From Gammaproteobacteria bacterium (GTDB lineage Bacteria > Pseudomonadota > Gammaproteobacteria > Steroidobacterales > Steroidobacteraceae): a stretch of 33,802 bases of DNA. The stretch is taken from NCBI GenBank assembly GCA_027452045.1, contig DAIDHH010000062.1, positions 1 to 33,802 on the forward strand, in the 5' to 3' direction. The notes beneath the pieces were generated by a model. It had not been told where the DNA came from. It ran no database searches and saw only the letters and a list, made by a program, of their open reading frames with translations. Position numbers and translations under genes: made by a program. Below, in pieces: positions 25,895 through 33,763 of the stretch. The stretch's first letter is position 1. Each line of letters begins with the position of its first letter.

Positions 25895-25921
25895 CTGTGA
25901 CATGTTTCAAAGGTGTTACAG
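25895..25921. promoter_or_regulatory. Inverted repeat upstream of the VpsR-like gene
   Basis: CTGTGACA, 11 nt, TGTTACAG (7 of 8 positions paired). It encloses ACATGTTTC (25900-25908), a 9-mer also found upstream of the amyloid-like operon. Candidate binding site for the activator or another regulator. Confidence 0.45.
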
Positions 25922-26110: not shown

Positions 26111-27484
26111 ATGTCTCGGGGCGTGATCGTTCTGCAGGCGGCCGAGTCGGTTCCCGATCTCGGCCTTTTGCTTGCGGCCCATCACTGGCGGGTACGGCGG
26201 GCGACCCGGTCGGAGCAGGTTCACGAGGCGCTGCTGCGGGGCGACTGCAACGTCGGCGTCGCGGTATTCGACGAGGCGCTCGAGTGCTCACCGGAGAGCC
26301 TTGCCCAGCTCGCCGAGAACTCCGGCACCGAGTGGATCGCCGTGCTGCCGCGCGACTGCGCCCGCGACCGCCTCACGGCGCGCGCGCTCGCATCGAGCTA
26401 CTTCGATTACCACACGCTGCCGGTGGACGATGCGCGACTGCTGTACTCGATCGGCCACGCCTACGGCAAGGCTGTGTTGCGTCACACCGCCCTCGCACCC
26501 GCGGAGTCCAGCCAAGGCCGCTTCGGGATGATCGGCGAGAGCCCCGCCATGATCACCTTGCACGCCCGGCTCGAGAGGGTGATGCGCGCCAATGCCCCGT
26601 TGCTGCTCACCGGGGAGAGCGGGGTCGGTAAGGAGCTCGCCGCGCGCGCCGTGCATCTTGGCTCCAGCCGCTCGAGCGCGCCGTTCGTGCCGGTCAACTG
26701 CGGCGCCCTCCCCCAGGCACTCATCGAGAGCCTGCTGTTCGGTCACGAGAAGGGCGCATTCACCGGTGCCCACGAGCGGCAGATCGGTTCGATCGAAGCG
26801 GCCCACCGGGGCACCATCTTCCTCGATGAGATCGGCGATCTGCCGCGCTCGGCACAGGCGAGCCTGCTGCGCTTCCTGCAGGAGTCGACCGTCATGCGTG
26901 TCGGCTCCACGCGCGAGATCCGGATCGATGCGCGCGTCATCGCCGCTACCCACATGGACCTGCGACAGGCGGTGCGCATGGGGCGCTTCCGCGAAGACCT
27001 GTTCTACCGTCTCAATGTGCTCAGCATCGACATACCGCCGCTGCGGGCCCGAGGCAATGACAGCGTGCTCCTCGCCCAGCACTTTTTCCGCCACTGCGCC
27101 AATGGCCGCGCGCCCGGGGTGCGCGGCTTCTCGCACAATGCGCTCGCCGCCATCGAGCGCTACGGCTGGCCGGGTAACGTGCGGGAACTCCTGAACCGCG
27201 TACAGCACGCCACGGTCATGTGCGATGGCCCGCTCATCACGGCCGCCGATCTGCAGCTCTGCGGCCCCATCGCCGCCCGGCCCAACGGCTCTCTGGCGCT
27301 GGCCCGCGCCGGCACGGAACGCGGACTCATCGAAGCGACGCTCGAGCGGACCGGCAACAACATCGCCGCCACGGCTCGCGAGCTGTCGGTCTCTCGGGTC
27401 ACCCTCTACCGACGGCTCAAGCGGCTCGGCATCACCCCCCGCGGCCCGCCTTCCGCCTACCTGCAGCCGGAGATAGAAAAATGA
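26111..27484 (+). CDS. VpsR-like sigma-54-dependent transcriptional activator
   Basis: 457 residues. The N-terminal receiver-like domain (about 1-125) lacks a clear phospho-Asp pocket; its end (FDYHTLPVDDARLLYSIGHA) and the junction FGMIGESPAMITLHARL resemble VpsR of Vibrio. The AAA+ domain has Walker A GESGVGKE, GAFTGA (sigma-54 contact, intact), Walker B GTIFLDEIGD and the arginine-finger region REDLFYRLNV. The C-terminal Fis-type HTH is NNIAATARELSVSRVTLYRR. VpsR family proteins bind c-di-GMP and control biofilm matrix genes; c-di-GMP binding here is inference. The gene overlaps the beta-barrel gene by ATGA, and a sigma-54 promoter lies upstream of the facing matrix operon. Confidence 0.92.
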   Translation: MSRGVIVLQAAESVPDLGLLLAAHHWRVRRATRSEQVHEALLRGDCNVGVAVFDEALECSPESLAQLAENSGTEWIAVLPRDCARDRLTARALASSYFDYHTLPVDDARLLYSIGHAYGKAVLRHTALAPAESSQGRFGMIGESPAMITLHARLERVMRANAPLLLTGESGVGKELAARAVHLGSSRSSAPFVPVNCGALPQALIESLLFGHEKGAFTGAHERQIGSIEAAHRGTIFLDEIGDLPRSAQASLLRFLQESTVMRVGSTREIRIDARVIAATHMDLRQAVRMGRFREDLFYRLNVLSIDIPPLRARGNDSVLLAQHFFRHCANGRAPGVRGFSHNALAAIERYGWPGNVRELLNRVQHATVMCDGPLITAADLQLCGPIAARPNGSLALARAGTERGLIEATLERTGNNIAATARELSVSRVTLYRRLKRLGITPRGPPSAYLQPEIEK

Positions 27485-28530
27485 ATGCGCCACGAAGCCT
27501 CCCGGCACTTGCACTCGCCTCGACTCTTCTAGGGGGGACGGTCTGCGCCTCGGCCGCGCAGACGCAGACCACCCCTCCTCCGGCACCGGTCGGACAGGCG
27601 CCCGAGGCGCCAAAGGCGCCCGCCCCGGCTGCGCAGATTTTCGCCGAGCCGACGGTGCTCACGCCCCGCGGCACCCTCGTGCTCGAGCCCGATGCCCAGT
27701 ATGTGCACTCGACCAACAACCAGGTCGCGCTGGTCGGCTATACGGTGCTCCCGGCGATCACCATCGGGCTCATCGACATCCAGAGAATCGAGAGCAATCT
27801 CTCCACGTTCAGCCTGACGGCCCGCTACGGACTCTTCTCGCGTCTCGAGATCGAGGCGCGCGTGCCCTACGTCGTGGAAAATACGACCACCGAGACCCGG
27901 CCGCTCGCGACCGCCGCGACCACCAACTCCTTCTTCGATTCCTCCGGCAACGGCCTGGGGGATGCCGAACTCGCGCTACGCGCGCAGCTCAACCAGTTCC
28001 GCGGCAACAACATGGTCTGGATCGGCTCGCTGCTCTTGAAGTCGCGCACCGGGACCGATGTCTTTCAGGAGCCCATCGATGCGAACACGGGTCTGCAGAC
28101 CCGGCTCGCGACCGGCTCGGGCTTCTACGCCGTGCAGCCGGGCATCACCTTTCTCCTGCCCTCGGACCCGGCGGTGTTCTTCGGCGGCGCCGACTACACC
28201 TACAGCTTCGCCCGCAACGTGGGTTACGGTTACGGCCACATCCACCCGGGCGGCATCCTCGATCTGACCCTCGGTGTGGGCCTGTCGCTCAATTCGCGCG
28301 CCTCATTGAGCATCGGCTATCAGCACAGCGTGGTCGAGCAGACCACGCAGGCGGCCACCGCCACCGGGCGGGCGCTTGCGCGCCTGGGAACCCTGCAGCT
28401 CGGCACTCTGCGCTTCGGCGTGACCTACCAGGTAAACCCCAGAACGCTGCTCAACGTGACCATCGGGATCGGCGTCACCCGCGACACGCCGGATCTCGAG
28501 GCTACCGTCCGGCTGCCTCTCACCCTCTAA
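27481..28530 (+). CDS. Outer-membrane beta-barrel, candidate FapF-like exporter
   Basis: 349 residues; starts at 27481 in an ATGA overlap with the activator stop. The signal peptide (about 1-26) ends ASA. A Pro/Ala-rich linker (27-52) follows. The remainder shows alternating amphipathic strands: TLVLEPDAQYVHSTNN, LTARYGLFSRLEIEARVPYV, GSGFYAVQPGITFLLP, RASLSIGYQHSV and LRFGVTYQVNPRT. It ends in a strand finishing Leu-Thr-Leu. The strand pattern (RYG...LEIEARVPYV) resembles transporter-annotated barrels including FapF, the amyloid export pore. The short linker lacks the long coiled coil of Pseudomonas FapF, so export of the facing operon's products is inference. Confidence 0.8.
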   Translation: MNAPRSLPALALASTLLGGTVCASAAQTQTTPPPAPVGQAPEAPKAPAPAAQIFAEPTVLTPRGTLVLEPDAQYVHSTNNQVALVGYTVLPAITIGLIDIQRIESNLSTFSLTARYGLFSRLEIEARVPYVVENTTTETRPLATAATTNSFFDSSGNGLGDAELALRAQLNQFRGNNMVWIGSLLLKSRTGTDVFQEPIDANTGLQTRLATGSGFYAVQPGITFLLPSDPAVFFGGADYTYSFARNVGYGYGHIHPGGILDLTLGVGLSLNSRASLSIGYQHSVVEQTTQAATATGRALARLGTLQLGTLRFGVTYQVNPRTLLNVTIGIGVTRDTPDLEATVRLPLTL

Positions 28531-28546
28531 CCGGCTCCCGCGACAT

Positions 28547-29551
28547 TCAGCGACCCACGGCGCTCGCCACCTGTGCCTGGATTGCGCTCGCGAGGGCTAG
28601 CGAGTTGACGACCGGAATACTGTTCAGCGTCGCCGAGATGGTCGTCTGAGTCTGGATGGCGGTCCCGCGCACCTCGTTCTGCACCGCGGTCGTGATCGCA
28701 GTCGCGTTAGGCAGGTTGCTCACGACGATGATCGGAGTCGAGACTACCGCCGCGGTGTTGGCCGCCGGGGCCGGCACGCTCGCGGCGTTCGCAGCCGAAC
28801 CGGCCAAAGCAGACGGCGCGCTCGAGTTCGGCTGCGCGACGGGCTGGACGCTCGCGAGCGACGCCGCAGAGGCGGACGGTGTCTCAGCGGTCGCATTGTC
28901 CGCGCCCGTTGCGGAGGTCGCACCCGCCGCCGCTGCGACGGCGCTCGAGAGCGCACTGCCAAACTGAGTCATGGACCCGCTCTGGGTCCCGCCAGATGAA
29001 ATCGTCCCATTGGCCTGTGGGCCGACGCCCGTGGGTGTCGCAGCGGAACTGTGAGTCGTCGCGACGGCAGGTGTGGCGGGCGCGCTCACAGGAGCGCTCG
29101 AGGCGATTTGCGCGGTCACCGGCGCGGCACTCGAGGCCGCTGGCACCGCACTCGAGGCCGCTGACGCCGCACTCGAGGCCACCGGCACCGCACTCGAGGC
29201 GACTGGGGCACTCGGGATCCCTCCTCCATTCATGATCTGAACCACCTGCGCGAGGGGCCCTGAGACGGTGATCGTCGGCAGGCCCCCCGAGGCGAGCCGA
29301 TCGAGATTGGAGATCACGATCTCCGCCCTGGCCACCACCTCACCGTCCACCTCGACGATGCGCTCAATCGCGAAGTACGCCACGAGGTTGCTGAGATCGA
29401 TCCCACCTCGCAGCCGCCCGAGGACCGCATCCGGCACCACCGGCCAAGAAGCCACCGCGCGCTCGTCCGTGGGTGAGCTCGGCGCCGCCACGGCCGCTGC
29501 GGTTGCGACCGTCAGGCAGAAGCCGAGCATCATGGGTTTCAGGGTGTGCAT
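28547..29551 (-). CDS. Secreted Ala/Ser-rich protein, candidate FapE-like component
   Basis: 334 residues; AGGAG lies 6 nt before ATG 29551. Signal peptide about 1-22. Next comes a leader-like VPDAVLGRLRGG (Gly49-Gly50), then a folded-looking segment (LVAYFAIERIVEVDGEVVAR, 56-75). Residues 115-270 are low-complexity Ala/Ser/Pro, including four 7-residue repeats of the type ASSAVPV. The C-terminal domain (271-334) has TPIIVVSNLPNATAITTAV and QNEVRGTAIQ (Gln291 to Gln300), sharing QN-x6-[IV]-Q with the two other secreted products. It is last in the operon, 16 nt after the C39 gene, and converges with the barrel gene. The FapE equivalence is by position and motif only. Confidence 0.8.
   Translation of the reverse strand: MHTLKPMMLGFCLTVATAAAVAAPSSPTDERAVASWPVVPDAVLGRLRGGIDLSNLVAYFAIERIVEVDGEVVARAEIVISNLDRLASGGLPTITVSGPLAQVVQIMNGGGIPSAPVASSAVPVASSAASAASSAVPAASSAAPVTAQIASSAPVSAPATPAVATTHSSAATPTGVGPQANGTISSGGTQSGSMTQFGSALSSAVAAAAGATSATGADNATAETPSASAASLASVQPVAQPNSSAPSALAGSAANAASVPAPAANTAAVVSTPIIVVSNLPNATAITTAVQNEVRGTAIQTQTTISATLNSIPVVNSLALASAIQAQVASAVGR
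29127..29207. repeat. 21-bp tandem repeat, about 4 copies
   Basis: Units starting GCACTCGAGG recur at 29127, 29148, 29169 and 29190 with few mismatches. They encode 7-residue Ala/Ser/Pro/Val repeats of the FapE-like protein. In-frame length change by slippage is possible. Confidence 0.85.
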
Positions 29552-29567
29552 CTGGCTCTCCTAACAC

Positions 29568-30278
29568 TCAGAAGACGCTCGCATTCGGAATTTCGAGCAA
29601 CTCCGCCGCGAGTGAATTGCGATTGACGCCCGCGAACATCGGCGGTGCGGTGGGACTTCCCCAATCGGCCGCCAGGTTGAAGCGCGCCGCATGCAAATCG
29701 CTGCGGATGACGAAGAACAGGTTGCCGACGCGCGCAGCCTCGAACGCCCGCCGCGAGAGCACACGGCGTCCGAGCGCCGGATCGCCGATCACCACCTGGG
29801 TTGCATCGGCGCCCTTGACCACCACGAAATGGCGGTAGCCGCGGTCGGTGATGAGGGCGATCGCGGGAACCCCGACCTTGATGAGCGTGTTGAGCGACAC
29901 GCGTACGCCGTCCGCCGTGTAACCGAGGCTCTGGAGGTAACGCTTCATGTCGAGCAGCGAGAAACCCTTGGCCCGGATCTGAGCCTGATTACCGACGGCA
30001 TACATCGCCCGGAACACGGCCATCTCGCTCGTCGGGCGGCCGTACTGGTAAGTAAGGAGAGTCGCCACCGCGGCCGAGCCGCAACTGAAGTCGAACTGCT
30101 GATGGATGGTGCGCCTGAAGGCCTGCTCGAGCTTCATCTCCTTGAGCGAGCGCACCTGAATCGACAGCGACTCGCTCGCACTCGTCTGGGCCACGGCCGT
30201 GGCGCTCCGGGCGCACGGCACGCCCGCGGCCGTCACCGCGAGCCACAGCAGCAGCATGCTGAAGAGTCTGCGGGTCAT
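29568..30278 (-). CDS. C39-family peptidase-like protein, candidate FapD
   Basis: 236 residues. Signal peptide about 1-25 (MTRRLFSMLLLWLAVTAAG), so it acts in the periplasm, unlike C39 domains fused to ABC transporters. The C39 fold is clear: catalytic Cys in FDFSCGSAAVATLL, then GFSLLDMKRYLQSLGYTADG, His in RGYRHFVVVKG, and Asp in VIGDPALG; the triad is intact. In Pseudomonas fap operons a C39-like FapD is needed for fibre production. The gene is 4 nt after the small secreted protein gene and 16 nt before the FapE-like gene. Possible substrates are the two double-glycine-like motifs in its neighbours. Confidence 0.9.
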   Translation of the reverse strand: MTRRLFSMLLLWLAVTAAGVPCARSATAVAQTSASESLSIQVRSLKEMKLEQAFRRTIHQQFDFSCGSAAVATLLTYQYGRPTSEMAVFRAMYAVGNQAQIRAKGFSLLDMKRYLQSLGYTADGVRVSLNTLIKVGVPAIALITDRGYRHFVVVKGADATQVVIGDPALGRRVLSRRAFEAARVGNLFFVIRSDLHAARFNLAADWGSPTAPPMFAGVNRNSLAAELLEIPNASVF

Positions 30279-30282
30279 GGCC

Positions 30283-30786
30283 CTAGTGGGGGTTCGTCAG
30301 CTGCAGGTTGAGGATGGTGGAATTCTGGATGAGTACGTTGTTCCCCGTGTTCTGGATCACGATCGGAATCCCGGAGGAATTCGCGAAGGACCCCTGGCTG
30401 ATGGTATTCGAGCCGGTCGTGAGCTGCGAGGCGACGTTGCCGCTCACCGCGCCGGTGGCGTTGCTCGAATTGCTGGTGTTGGTGCCGCCCCGGTCGCCGG
30501 CGAGCTCCCGATCGCTGATGACCGCCGCGCTCAGCAGATCCTCAGATTTGCCGTGGCGATCGGACACCAATCGTTTCGGCCGAGCACGCGCGGCTCCCGC
30601 CGCGCTTCGCTGCGCCGCCACCGGCAGGCTGCGCTTCTGCGGGACAGCCCGAGATGCGCCGGGCGTCGCGGTTTTCTCGATCTTCGCAACGTGCGAGTCG
30701 CGAGGTGGCGTGGCCGCAGCACGTCCCCCGGCACTCAGCGCACCCAAGGCAAAGAGAAACACGGCAAAGGCACCGCGTGAGTTCAT
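30283..30786 (-). CDS. Small secreted protein with double-glycine-like motif and amyloid-type C-terminus
   Basis: 167 residues from ATG 30786, with GGGAGG 5 nt upstream. A signal peptide (about 1-25) is followed by a basic Ala/Arg/Pro region (26-75). VISDRELAGDRGG at 89-101 fits the double-glycine leader pattern [LI]SxxELxxxxGG. The last 65 residues are Asn/Ser/Thr-rich: ATGAVSGNVASQLTTGSNTI, then IQNTGNNVLIQNSTILNLQL. QN-x6-[IV]-Q runs from Gln145 to Gln154, and the stretch aligns with both ends of the 572-residue neighbour. Candidate minor or nucleating fibre subunit (FapB-like by position); no Cys is present. Function is inference. Confidence 0.82.
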   Translation of the reverse strand: MNSRGAFAVFLFALGALSAGGRAAATPPRDSHVAKIEKTATPGASRAVPQKRSLPVAAQRSAAGAARARPKRLVSDRHGKSEDLLSAAVISDRELAGDRGGTNTSNSSNATGAVSGNVASQLTTGSNTISQGSFANSSGIPIVIQNTGNNVLIQNSTILNLQLTNPH

Positions 30787-30802
30787 ATCGGCCTCCCGGA
30801 AC

Positions 30803-30839
30803 GTCCGGAGCGGGCGCGATGGCGCGCCTCGCCCCGGAC
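30803..30839 (-). terminator. Intercistronic hairpin after the Gly-rich gene
   Basis: GTCCGG...GGCGCG, loop ATGG, CGCGCC...CCGGAC: two 6-bp stems separated by an internal loop. It lies between the 572-residue gene stop and the Shine-Dalgarno of the next gene, with no T-run. It may attenuate downstream expression or protect the upstream message. Confidence 0.5.
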
Positions 30840-30850
30840 TGTGCCTTGTG

Positions 30851-32569
30851 CTAGTGCCCTGTCGCCGACAACGACAGATTCGCCTGCACGTTGACGCTCT
30901 GCTGGACCAGGGACGAGATGCCGGTGTTCTGGCTCGCAACCGTGATACCGGCGCCGTTGGTGAAGGCGGCGCTGATGTTGTTCGCCATGTCGAAAGTTCC
31001 GGCCGTGACGGTGTTCGCACCGCCCGCGCCACCGGCACCCCCGGCACCACCTACCGCACCATTGCCTACGCCACCGGTCCCGGTGGTGGTGTTTTGGCTT
31101 CCTCCAGTGCCCGCGCCGCCACTGCCGCCATTGCCACCGCTCCCGCCTCCTCCGCCGCTGCCGAGGGAGGCCGTGGCGCTGCCGTTGCTCGCACTGCCGT
31201 TGGTGGCCGAGCCGCCCGCGCCCGTCGTGCCGCCGGCATTGGAGGCCAGCCCGCCCGCCCCGCCACTGGCAGCACCGCCATTGCCGCCGGTGCCTTGGTT
31301 GGGTGTGAACGTACCGCCCGAGCCGCCCGAGCCACCTGCGCCTCCGGATCCGCCACCACCGCCCGAGCCGCCATTACCCGCGGTCGAGCTGCCATTTGAG
31401 GCACCGCCGTTGGTCGCGCTTCCGTTGGTGGCCGAGCCACCCGCACCGCCCGCGCCACCGGTCGTGGTGCTCGCGACCGAGTTCGCCGCACCACCGCCGG
31501 TACCACTGCCGGCGGTCGAGCCACCACCGGTGCCGCTGCTCCCACCTGCACCGCCGCCACCACCGGTGCCGGTTGACCCGTTCGAGCCGCCTGCGCCACT
31601 GCCGCTTGCGCTACCCGAGCCACCCGAACCACCACCGGCGGCCGCACTGAGTCCACCAAGCGACGCGCCTCCCTTGCCCGATCCGCCGCCACCGCCAATG
31701 GTCTTCACGAGACCGGCGTCGCCACCGGAACCGCCATTGCCGGCGCTCGCGCTGCCATTGCTCGCGCTACCGTTGGTCGCGCCACCGTTCGCGGCGTCAC
31801 CACCGGTCGCGCCCACGGCGCCCATGCCGCCGTCGGCCGTCGCGCCCGCGCCACCGTAGCCGGTGTTGTAGGAATCCCCGGCGTTGCCACCATTTGCATG
31901 GCCACCGCGCCCACCGTTGCCGCCGCTCGCCCCAGTGGCATTGGCGCCATCGCCGCCGTTGCCCGCGCTAGCGCTGCCGTTGCTCGCGCTGCCATTGCTC
32001 GTATCGCCATTGCTCACCGAGCCGCCCGGCGCCCCGACCGCGCCATTGGCGCCGTTACCGCCGCTCGTATCCATGCTCGCGGACGAACTGCCGCTCGCCC
32101 CGCCGTAGCCGGCGCCACCTTTGCCGCCGTTCCCGCCCGCCGCGGCATTGGCATTTCCCGCGTTCCAGGCGACGTTCCCGATGCCGGAAATCGTATTTCC
32201 AGAGACCGTCCCGCTGAGATTCGACGTCGCGGCAACCGTGGTGTTCCACGTATCGGTGGTTGCAGTATTGGTCGTGGTGTTGGTCGTGGTATTGGCTGTC
32301 GTGTTCGTCGTGTTCGTCGTATCCGTCGGAGTGATGGTCTTGGTGATGGTCACCGTCGGGTTGTAGCTGTTCGTGTTAGTGCTGGTGTTCGTGCTGGTGT
32401 CTGTGCTGGTGCTCGTATTGGTCTTGTTCGTCGTTGCCGTCTGCGACTGGTTTGGAGAGCCGCTGCCGCTGTTACTGAGAGTCCCGGTTCCGTTGCTGGC
32501 GATGGCCAGTCCGGACGCCGAGGCCAGCGCCAGGGCGACCGCCATGGCTATCAAGCGATTGGTCGTCAT
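30851..32569 (-). CDS. Large secreted Gly/Asn-rich repeat protein, candidate amyloid or adhesin matrix subunit
   Basis: 572 residues from ATG 32569, with GGAGG 8 nt upstream. Signal peptide about 1-25 (ending AIAS). Residues 41-112 are Thr/Asn/Ser-rich. SGTVSGNTISGIGN (119-132) precedes a Gly-rich region (about 145-515) with four spaced copies of a SNGSASNGSASAGNGG-type unit near 186, 262, 380 and 455. The C-terminus (about 520-572) has ANTVTAGTFDMANNISAAF and SQNTGISSLVQQSVNVQANL. QN-x6-V-Q runs from Gln547 to Gln556. The two ends together align with the end of the 167-residue protein, as if the Gly region were inserted. No Cys. It is first in the operon behind a sigma-54 promoter. Fibre formation is inference from composition and context. 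Confidence 0.85.
   Translation of the reverse strand: MTTNRLIAMAVALALASASGLAIASNGTGTLSNSGSGSPNQSQTATTNKTNTSTSTDTSTNTSTNTNSYNPTVTITKTITPTDTTNTTNTTANTTTNTTTNTATTDTWNTTVAATSNLSGTVSGNTISGIGNVAWNAGNANAAAGGNGGKGGAGYGGASGSSSASMDTSGGNGANGAVGAPGGSVSNGDTSNGSASNGSASAGNGGDGANATGASGGNGGRGGHANGGNAGDSYNTGYGGAGATADGGMGAVGATGGDAANGGATNGSASNGSASAGNGGSGGDAGLVKTIGGGGGSGKGGASLGGLSAAAGGGSGGSGSASGSGAGGSNGSTGTGGGGGAGGSSGTGGGSTAGSGTGGGAANSVASTTTGGAGGAGGSATNGSATNGGASNGSSTAGNGGSGGGGGSGGAGGSGGSGGTFTPNQGTGGNGGAASGGAGGLASNAGGTTGAGGSATNGSASNGSATASLGSGGGGGSGGNGGSGGAGTGGSQNTTTGTGGVGNGAVGGAGGAGGAGGANTVTAGTFDMANNISAAFTNGAGITVASQNTGISSLVQQSVNVQANLSLSATGH
31154..32012. repeat. Degenerate dispersed repeats in the Gly-rich coding region
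   Basis: Four related blocks (about 31154-31214, 31373-31436, 31738-31790, 31959-32012), each containing variants of GCTGCCGTTGCTCGC on the plus strand. They encode the NGSASNGSAS units and are separated by Gly-rich spacers. Confidence 0.75.
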
Positions 32570-32665: not shown

Positions 32666-32681
32666 TGCAATGACCGCGCCA
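32666..32681 (-). promoter_or_regulatory. Sigma-54 (-24/-12) promoter of the amyloid-like operon
   Basis: The minus strand reads TGGCGC, 5 nt, TTGCA, against the consensus TGGCAC-N5-TTGC[AT]: one mismatch and exact spacing. The predicted start site is near 32655, giving a leader of about 86 nt before ATG 32569. A sigma-54 activator with GAFTGA is encoded in the same locus. Confidence 0.82.
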
Positions 32682-32754
32682 CCCGGCTGCGGCTGCGCAA
32701 GCGTATGATTTGCGGAGAAAGCGATGCGCCCGCGGCGCGCGGCGGACTGCAACA

Positions 32755-32772
32755 GTTTCGAAACATGTTTCG
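32755..32772. promoter_or_regulatory. Overlapping palindromes, candidate enhancer site
   Basis: GTTTCGAAAC (32755-32764) and CGAAACATGTTTCG (32759-32772) are both perfect palindromes. The centre is about 110 bp upstream of the predicted sigma-54 start site, a usual enhancer distance. The 9-mer ACATGTTTC recurs at 25900-25908. Confidence 0.55.
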
Positions 32773-32868: not shown

Positions 32869-33627
32869 ATGCAGATCGACCTCGCGAACACGAACGCACT
32901 CGTCACGGGCGCGAGCCGCGGCATAGGCGCAGCCATCGCCCGCGCAATGGGCAGGGCCGGCGCGCGGGTCGCGGTGCACTACCACAGCCAACGAGACCAG
33001 GCGGACACCCTGGCGGCGGAAATCGGGCAGCGCGCGCAGACGTTTCAGGCGGACCTCGGCGATGCCGATGCCTGTGTCTCGCTATGGAAGGCCGTGACGG
33101 AGCGCTTCGGACGGATTCACACGCTGGTCAACAACGCCGGAATCGCCCTCTCCTGCCCGCCCGAGGGCGACATCACCGGCTGGGTGCGGGGATGGGACGC
33201 GACGATGGCAGTGAATCTGCGCGCCCCGGGCATTCTCTCGAAGCTTGCCGTCCAGCACTTCATCGAGCACGGCGGCGGCCGGATCATCAACATCTCTTCG
33301 CGCGCGGCCTTTCGCGGCGATCAGCCACCCTACCTCGCCTATGCCGCATCGAAGGCGGGACTCGTGGCGCTGACGCGATCCCTGGCCCGCGGCTTCGGCA
33401 AATCCGGCGTGCTCGCCTTCAATGTGGCGCCCGGATTTACGCGCACGGAAATGGCGGAGGATTTTATCCGCCAGTATGGAGAGGATTACGCCTGCGGCGA
33501 CATCGCGCTCTCGCGCCTGACGGAGCCGGCGGATATCGCCCCGATCGTCACGTTCCTCGCGAGCGGCCTTGCCGATCACGCAACCGGCTGCACCATCGAT
33601 GTGAACGCGGGCTCCTACGTACACTGA
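32869..33627 (+). CDS. Short-chain dehydrogenase/reductase (FabG-like)
   Basis: 252 residues, classical SDR length. The cofactor motif is TGASRGIG (about 13-20), followed by LVNNAGIAL, catalytic Ser in IINISSRAAF and Tyr-x3-Lys in AYAASK. Later landmarks are FNVAPGFTRTEMAEDF and FLASGLADHATGCTIDVNAG. The fold and motifs fit NAD(P)H-dependent 3-oxoacyl-ACP reductase-like enzymes, but the substrate cannot be assigned. No strong Shine-Dalgarno is seen. The gene is divergent from the amyloid-like operon, with about 300 nt of shared upstream DNA, and converges with tRNA-Pro. Confidence 0.93.
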   Translation: MQIDLANTNALVTGASRGIGAAIARAMGRAGARVAVHYHSQRDQADTLAAEIGQRAQTFQADLGDADACVSLWKAVTERFGRIHTLVNNAGIALSCPPEGDITGWVRGWDATMAVNLRAPGILSKLAVQHFIEHGGGRIINISSRAAFRGDQPPYLAYAASKAGLVALTRSLARGFGKSGVLAFNVAPGFTRTEMAEDFIRQYGEDYACGDIALSRLTEPADIAPIVTFLASGLADHATGCTIDVNAGSYVH

Positions 33628-33686: not shown

Positions 33687-33763
33687 TGGTCGGGGCGCCG
33701 AGATTTGAACTCGGGACCCCTTGCACCCCATGCAAGTGCGCTACCAGGCTGCGCCACGCCCCG
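33687..33763 (-). tRNA. tRNA-Pro (anticodon GGG)
   Basis: 77 nt with encoded CCA. The acceptor stem is CGGGGCG with CGCCCCG, discriminator A. The anticodon stem CTTGC/GCAAG has loop ATGGGGT. The T-loop is TTCAAAT. Confidence 0.96.

Follow-up and report, generated by a model that had tools for sequence, protein, structure and literature searches.

Does a locus that sets a secreted C39 peptidase and an outer membrane barrel beside low-complexity secreted proteins make a functional amyloid of the Pseudomonas Fap kind, or does it put a related machine to another use? The question is raised by six genes in a stretch of 33,802 nucleotides from a member of the Steroidobacteraceae (contig DAIDHH010000062.1, assembly GCA_027452045.1; the whole stretch is termed the window), which a first-pass annotation had described as a Fap-like functional amyloid locus with its own sigma-54 activator, on a divergent or undescribed branch of the system. 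All six genes lie where that annotation placed them, and they encode an activator, a barrel, a glycine-rich secreted protein (the subunit), a C39 protein and two further secreted proteins, termed E and B (Table 1). Comparison with relatives indicates that the locus is a variant of the Fap kind, with a homologous machine, a different cargo and its own switch. It is not canonical Fap, because Fap repeats, the coiled coil of FapF and the single-operon layout were each looked for and were not found. That the locus works like Fap can be said with fair confidence, and it is likely to be a surface-fibre system of two transcription units, in which E and B are matured by a periplasmic C39 peptidase under sigma-54 control.

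Homologues of FapD, FapF and FapE and the leader of E and B

The C39 protein matches Pfam PF03412 (E-value 4e-19), and its best NCBIfam model is FapD (E-value 2e-38; 131.9 bits, below the cut-off of 330). None of 369 genomes passed this cut-off, which appears therefore to have been set for near relatives of Pseudomonas; the model also found matches in 7 of 14 control genomes. All 109 aligned sequences, that of the window among them, keep residues Gln60, Cys66, His150 and Asp166, and the C39 tree splits canonical FapD (15 rows) from all others (94 rows, among them the window) at 100/100. Loci were termed canonical-like at a FapD score of at least 196.9 bits; 6 of these 15 are confirmed by the FapC or FapE models, the remainder being assigned by score and tree. 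In the canonical-like loci that were scanned, the FapC model scored over its cut-off in 3/3 and the FapE model below its cut-off in 4/4, with L082 in both sets. Locus L110, in which the C39 frame is broken, was excluded from the E, B and tree counts, and L080 had no B pick; the window itself recurs as L109 and L111, and L112-L116 are the genomes of L002, L004, L003, L005 and L007, so that neither set adds evidence. On these grounds the C39 protein of the window is a FapD homologue on a sister branch of canonical FapD, and the ‘divergent branch’ of the first-pass annotation is borne out.

The barrel has FapF as its best solved relative (PDB 5o67; E-value 1.6e-18, residues 50-346) and as its best NCBIfam model (E-value 1.2e-30; 106.7 bits, below the cut-off of 700). 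By these matches it is a FapF homologue, and the profile check that had been suggested for the barrel and the C39 protein thus returned FapF and FapD as best models, each below its cut-off. Synteny was followed in the best 80 of 172 relatives from a genome scan with the C39 protein, with neighbours scored as present at a tblastn E-value of at most 1e-4. A FapF homologue was found in 78 of the 80 loci (within 3 kb of the C39 gene in 74; on the same strand in 56/78 and on the opposite strand in 22/78) and B in 71, so that the suggested survey of relatives bears out a conserved gene neighbourhood. The two loci that lack FapF are L051, which stops about 0.8 kb past the C39 gene, and L066, which is 5.8 kb long. 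In the window barrel the FapF match begins at model position 90 of 420; about 50 residues, signal peptide included, precede the barrel, and the periplasmic coiled-coil N-terminus of FapF was not found there. The FapF homologues of L001-L008, L013, L043, L075 and L078 also have about 50 residues before the barrel, and those of many other loci have 120-210; the longer N-termini look like coiled coils in L012, L060, L064 and L067. The N-terminal part of FapF in L060, L067 and L071 carries the strict leader pattern described below, which recalls the published idea that FapD may cut FapF as well.

Behind the signal peptide, E and B of the relatives share a conserved segment, which in the window reads VPDAVLGRLRGG in E and ISDRELAGDRGG in B. 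Leaders of C39 substrates follow the consensus LSxxELxxIxGG; the spacing in E and B is that of the consensus, and the leader has the hydrophobic P12, P7 and P4 before GG that mark C39 double-glycine substrates. With E and B genes chosen in the loci by a crude signal-peptide score, the pattern [LIVM]x4[LM]x3[RH]G[GRKT] was found in E of 101/109 loci (0.8 in shuffles), in 46/53 E sequences after thinning at 50% identity (0.4 in shuffles) and in B of 66/108 loci (0.29 in shuffles). It occurs in 1/109 C39 frames and in 7/489 other signal-peptide-like open reading frames (ORFs) of the 80 loci, three of the seven being FapF, and in neither the subunit nor the barrel of the window. Positions of E that the pattern leaves free also fit the consensus (P4 38/46, P8 24/46, P11 29/46, P15 31/46; each p<=1e-6 against composition). 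FapE of all 15 canonical-like loci has such a leader with R (11) or K (4) at P1, the residue being G (83, plus the window) or T (2) in the other pattern-bearing loci, and FapE of the named species Aeromonas caviae carries LADGELAHLRGRYV.

The kinship of E with FapE, which had been read from gene order, is supported by comparison of profiles: the E profile matches that of canonical-like FapE (15 loci) with a probability of 94.7 (E-value 6e-8) over 51 columns that cover the leader and the strands behind it, against only 0.3 for a control comparison of the FapE and subunit profiles. By profile comparison, then, E is homologous to FapE. The E and B profiles match each other with a probability of 98.3, and the C-terminal segment of B matches part of canonical-like FapE (probability 91, E-value 9e-7). 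No Pfam or NCBIfam family matched E (P0004), on which the FapE model was silent; that model found no match in the genome of the window, but nor did it match any control genome in the same search. In the AlphaFold model of E, a helix at 41-48 ends just before Gly49-Gly50 (block pLDDT, the predicted local distance difference test score, 68) and a better beta region spans 57-107; Foldseek of the whole model (pLDDT 58.9) against the PDB gave 0 matches at an E-value of at most 0.001. As a side observation, E of L097 has a weak Pfam match to type-A lantibiotic (residues 42-61, E-value 0.11), noteworthy only in that it falls on the leader.

The leaders of E and B probably mark the exact sites at which the C39 protease cuts. 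In the mechanism proposed here the subunit, B, the C39 protein and E would all be exported by Sec, after which the periplasmic FapD-like peptidase would recognise the helical leader of E and B (through hydrophobic P12, P7 and P4) and cut at RGG. This second, periplasmic maturation step may license E and B for interaction with the FapF-type barrel, where they would start and guide export and cell-surface assembly of the glycine-rich subunit. The wider proposition, to which we lean with less assurance than to the reading of the locus itself, is that the FapE superfamily, canonical members included, together with B in the window's branch, consists of Sec-exported proteins whose second, bacteriocin-style leader is removed by a periplasmic C39 peptidase. 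Double-glycine processing, which serves peptide export at the inner membrane, would thereby have been relocated to the periplasm, as a checkpoint for fibre proteins on their way through the outer membrane. The sister branch of Fap in which this happened would be a large one that carries glycine-rich or Ser/Asn-rich cargo and escapes Fap-repeat surveys.

In Pseudomonas the FapD cysteine was found to be needed for secretion of FapC, and no peptides were detected from the first ~70 residues of FapE (PMC5557850). That 2017 study described the substrate of FapD as unclear and the Fap proteins as lacking canonical C39 sequences; a 2018 review gave the substrate as undetermined (PMC6173800), and a 2025 review has FapD thought to process FapE and FapF (PMC12822426). 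FapE was thus already suspected as a FapD substrate, and what is added is the leader motif, its position and B as a proposed second substrate. In the window's branch the leader is close to its classical form, and from there its altered form in FapE can be recognised; this gives an exact proposed site and, within the branch, the proposed second substrate. FapD is essential for Fap secretion, and the leader bears on which proteins it cuts. The leaders also open the maturation step to direct testing. ‘Undescribed’ needs care, as homologues of fapD and fapF lying next to each other had been noted in five additional phyla by the 2018 review (PMC6173800). The 2025 survey is described as anchored on FapB/C repeats (PMC12822426), so by that method the window's branch would not be counted in it. 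In the open-licence PMC literature, preprints excluded, no paper was found on a FapE leader motif or on a glycine-rich FapD/FapF system.

Transcriptional control

The activator has a VpsR-type domain (E-value 8e-11), an AAA+ domain and a Fis-type helix-turn-helix (HTH), with GESGVGKE (168) and GAFTGA (215). Relatives of VpsR respond to cyclic di-GMP (c-di-GMP). The genome of the window encodes rpoN (E-value 5e-135), and a sigma-54 site is the best site upstream of the operon in 11/11 close loci (the window, L001-L008, L010 and L011; shuffle p 0.000-0.008), with the full consensus TGGCACG-N4-TTGCT at the same distance (-111 to -114) in L001-L007 and weaker forms in L008, L010 and L011 (shuffle p up to 0.008, or 0.010 in a second comparison). 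These same 11 loci all carry ACATGT 85-87 bp upstream of the -24 box (0.02 expected from shuffles), in upstream regions that are only 0.43-0.85 identical to the window; the hexamer lies within 450 bases of the start in 3/61 other loci. When more loci were taken in, 41/69 had their best sigma-54-like site between -115 and -70 (8.2 expected), and sites scoring at least 26.5 were found in 14/24 loci with an activator nearby against 7/47 without; L009, L014, L038, L042, L047, L064 and L066 were left out of the promoter count. A sigma-70 promoter was looked for and none was found.

The elements of a sigma-54 operon are found together here, namely a -24/-12 promoter, an upstream site, an activator with GAFTGA and rpoN in the genome, and they make a strong predicted link between the operon and sigma-54. 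The locus's own activator, as first annotated, has thereby gained a conserved promoter and palindrome. It is proposed that the VpsR-domain activator binds the palindrome and, with sigma-54, turns on the operon of subunit, B, C39 protein and E; promoter and palindrome would make the timing of fibre production easy to approach. A second ACATGT site (GTGACATGTTTCA) stands at a like place ahead of the activator gene, in the window and L001 only of the 11 activator genes compared, and autoregulation through it is not claimed for that reason.

The cargo and alternative readings

Several observations weigh against the proposed cleavage and control. The activator lies beside the locus in only 28/80 loci. 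Among thinned B sequences the leader pattern reaches only 13/37 (0.05 in shuffles), and B shows no enrichment at P15 or P1'. The pattern is missing from 8/109 of the genes picked as E: L061 reads ..QLEQARGG, in which P12 is Ala, and in L070 and one clade (L049, L050, L056, L068, L077 and L103) the picked gene is not E-like. The FapE sample contains no named Pseudomonas FapE, and FapE of Acidithiobacillus sp. AMEEHan, where the annotation breaks the C39 gene into pieces, carries MIGK and does not fit the strict pattern. As canonical FapE has R/K and not G at P1, the cut could fall elsewhere, and the conservation of GG with an aromatic residue behind it could have a structural reason. The R/K at P1 also speaks for a reading in which the leader serves as a signal for docking or export and the C39 protein is a chaperone that does not cut there, as does the published observation that some C39-like domains act without proteolysis (PMC5557850, PMC6173800); with the catalytic residues invariant in every aligned sequence, this reading is unlikely. 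Far less probable still is a barrel that is an unrelated COG4313-type uptake channel in an accidental neighbourhood: FapF itself has been noted to resemble COG4313 channels (PMC6173800), but the best matches of the barrel in both the PDB and NCBIfam are FapF, and it accompanies the C39 gene almost throughout the loci.

Maturation by cleavage, the preferred reading, leaves the nature of the cargo to be weighed. The core of the subunit has 380 residues, 163 of them Gly, with GGX runs, and is followed by a C-terminal segment (GI-QN-G-L-QQ-V-VQANL) whose strict pattern occurs in 55/76 upstream ORFs, and in more by eye. A non-amyloid glycine-rich surface protein, for example one forming polyglycine-II-like bundles and held or displayed through this segment, is a possibility to which we give somewhat less than even weight. 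It fits the GGX runs, the excess of Gly at spacing 3 in the core (90 pairs against 69 expected, z=4.3) and the conservation of the C-terminal segment among loci whose cores vary from glycine-rich to Ser/Asn-rich, but the period is modest (z=1.9 at lag 6 and -0.6 at lag 9) and AlphaFold shows no such bundle. More doubtful is a true functional amyloid, in which the glycine-rich protein (or B) forms cross-beta fibres like FapC with repeats no longer recognisable. In its favour are the export machine shared with Fap, the Ser/Asn-rich subunits of some relatives and the C-terminal segment of B, which, besides matching part of canonical-like FapE, gave a probability of 17.8 against the FapC repeat profile (hhalign) where reversed or column-shuffled controls reached at most 0.7; over 12 columns this is far from proof. 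The stretch concerned, GSFANSSGIPIVIQNTGNNVLIQNSTILNL in the C-terminus of B (window 30283-30484), is similar to a single Fap repeat, scoring higher than controls without reaching significance, and is a lead only.

Against amyloid, a Fap-repeat HMM (hidden Markov model; 31 repeats from canonical-like loci) matched 0/79 B, 0/94 E and 0/76 subunit sequences at an E-value of at most 1e-3, and none of the window proteins, and Fap repeats in B, E and the subunit were rejected; the best B score had an E-value of 0.027, with 3/79 at or below 0.1 and the best shuffle at 1.1. In the genome of the window (75% complete) the FapC model found no match and neither did the FapA model at an E-value of at most 1, the latter agreeing with the earlier remark that FapA is not apparent. 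NCBIfam gave no match for the subunit or B at an E-value of at most 1, and structure prediction, one of the suggested checks, yielded no confident fold for the subunit (AlphaFold pLDDT 38.8). These results give no support to ‘functional amyloid’ as first proposed, and the glycine-rich protein is a candidate fibre subunit. Its C-terminal profile weakly matches the C-terminus of B (probability 58, E-value 1e-4). Proteins that are Gly-poor, Ser-rich and often Asn-rich take its place in L013, L043, L049, L050, L056, L068, L077 and L078. In the clade without a recognisable E, the C39 gene is followed by one for a protein with a membrane segment and a coiled-coil look, and in B of at least L049, L050, L068 and L103 DDEL/LDEL..xRA replaces RGG.

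Layout, distribution and relation to known systems

The six genes form two converging units (Table 1). Activator and barrel genes overlap by 4 bases; on the minus strand the gaps are 64 (subunit-B), 4 (B-C39) and 16 bases (C39-E), and the E and barrel genes end 16 bases apart. The control region of the operon (32666-32771) lies outside the interval first annotated. Flanking the locus are a tRNA-Pro gene (33687-33763) and a short-chain dehydrogenase-like ORF (32869-33627). DUF3570, an early guess, gave no match.

Table 1. Position, strand and basis of assignment of the features of the locus in the window
Feature	Position	Strand	Basis
Sigma-54 activator	26111-27484	+	VpsR-type N-terminal domain, AAA+ domain, Fis-type HTH
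FapF-type outer membrane barrel, 349 aa, short N-terminus	27481-28530	+	PDB and NCBIfam FapF matches
Protein E, 334 aa, Ala/Ser-rich, FapE homologue by profile	28547-29551	-	Profile match to canonical-like FapE
Leader VPDAVLGRLRGG in E, proposed C39 cleavage site	29402-29437	-	Leader pattern
Secreted C39 peptidase, FapD homologue, 236 aa	29568-30278	-	Pfam PF03412, NCBIfam FapD, catalytic residues
Protein B, 167 aa, low-complexity, candidate minor subunit or nucleator	30283-30786	-	Conservation, profile matches
Leader ISDRELAGDRGG in B, proposed C39 cleavage site	30484-30519	-	Leader pattern
Gly-rich secreted protein, 572 aa, candidate main fibre subunit, conserved C-terminal segment	30851-32569	-	Composition, period, C-terminal pattern in relatives
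Predicted sigma-54 promoter TGGCGCGGTCATTGCA (-24/-12), ~100 bases ahead of subunit start codon	32666-32681	-	Best site in 11/11 close loci
Palindrome GAAACATGTTTC, proposed enhancer (upstream activator site)	32760-32771		ACATGT 85-87 bp upstream of -24 box
Second ACATGT site GTGACATGTTTCA, 211 bases ahead of activator gene	25897-25909	+	Weak; window and L001 only

Relatives among the best 80 of 172 include Lysobacteraceae, Burkholderiales, Ectothiorhodospira, alphaproteobacteria and a Geomonas. Within the window's genus the C39 gene was found in 5/24 other genomes, several of them incomplete. Both flanks are common to the window, L001 and L002, and the right flank also to L007, so the locus has stayed in place in these genomes (for L007 as judged from the right flank only). 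L072 and L085, whose contigs are equal in length (382,093), are apparently on one contig, with a weaker match (G012:C11:249107-249652) within the range of L072; from these coordinates one genome appears to carry both canonical and window-type systems, which would make them two systems rather than one system in two states. L119, the 6.5 kb Acidithiobacillus plasmid p5, carries genes like those for FapD and FapE, its C39 gene annotated in pieces.

Among known systems, curli works alike, in that a low-complexity surface subunit is exported through the outer membrane with accessory proteins, but none of the six window proteins matched a curli family. The processing of leaders by C39 domains of bacteriocin exporters has in common with the window the C39 fold, catalytic residues and leader spacing; it differs in that the window peptidase stands alone and has a signal peptide, where theirs is a domain of an ABC transporter, and in that the predicted substrates of the window peptidase are Sec-exported and large, with Arg at P3. 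The putative ‘Fil’ pilus of Acinetobacter is matched by the C39 protein (FilB, E-value 5e-31) and the barrel (FilC, E-value 5e-14), more weakly than FapD and FapF, and no other Fil model matched window proteins. From the fapABCDEF system of Pseudomonas the locus differs in a Gly-rich subunit without Fap repeats, in the absence of FapC and FapA matches from the genome, in a C39 protein on a separate branch and in a barrel that lacks the coiled-coil N-terminus; D, E and F do not lie in line in a single operon, F being convergent on the other strand beside the activator. Two papers describe fap operons as encoding no regulator (PMC6173800, PMC3684753), and FapA is reported to be missing from many accepted fap operons (PMC12822426) and to be dispensable (PMC6173800). 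Common to Fap and the window are the secreted C39 peptidase, the FapF-type barrel, the FapE-type protein, the secreted low-complexity subunits and the gene order subunit-subunit-D-E.

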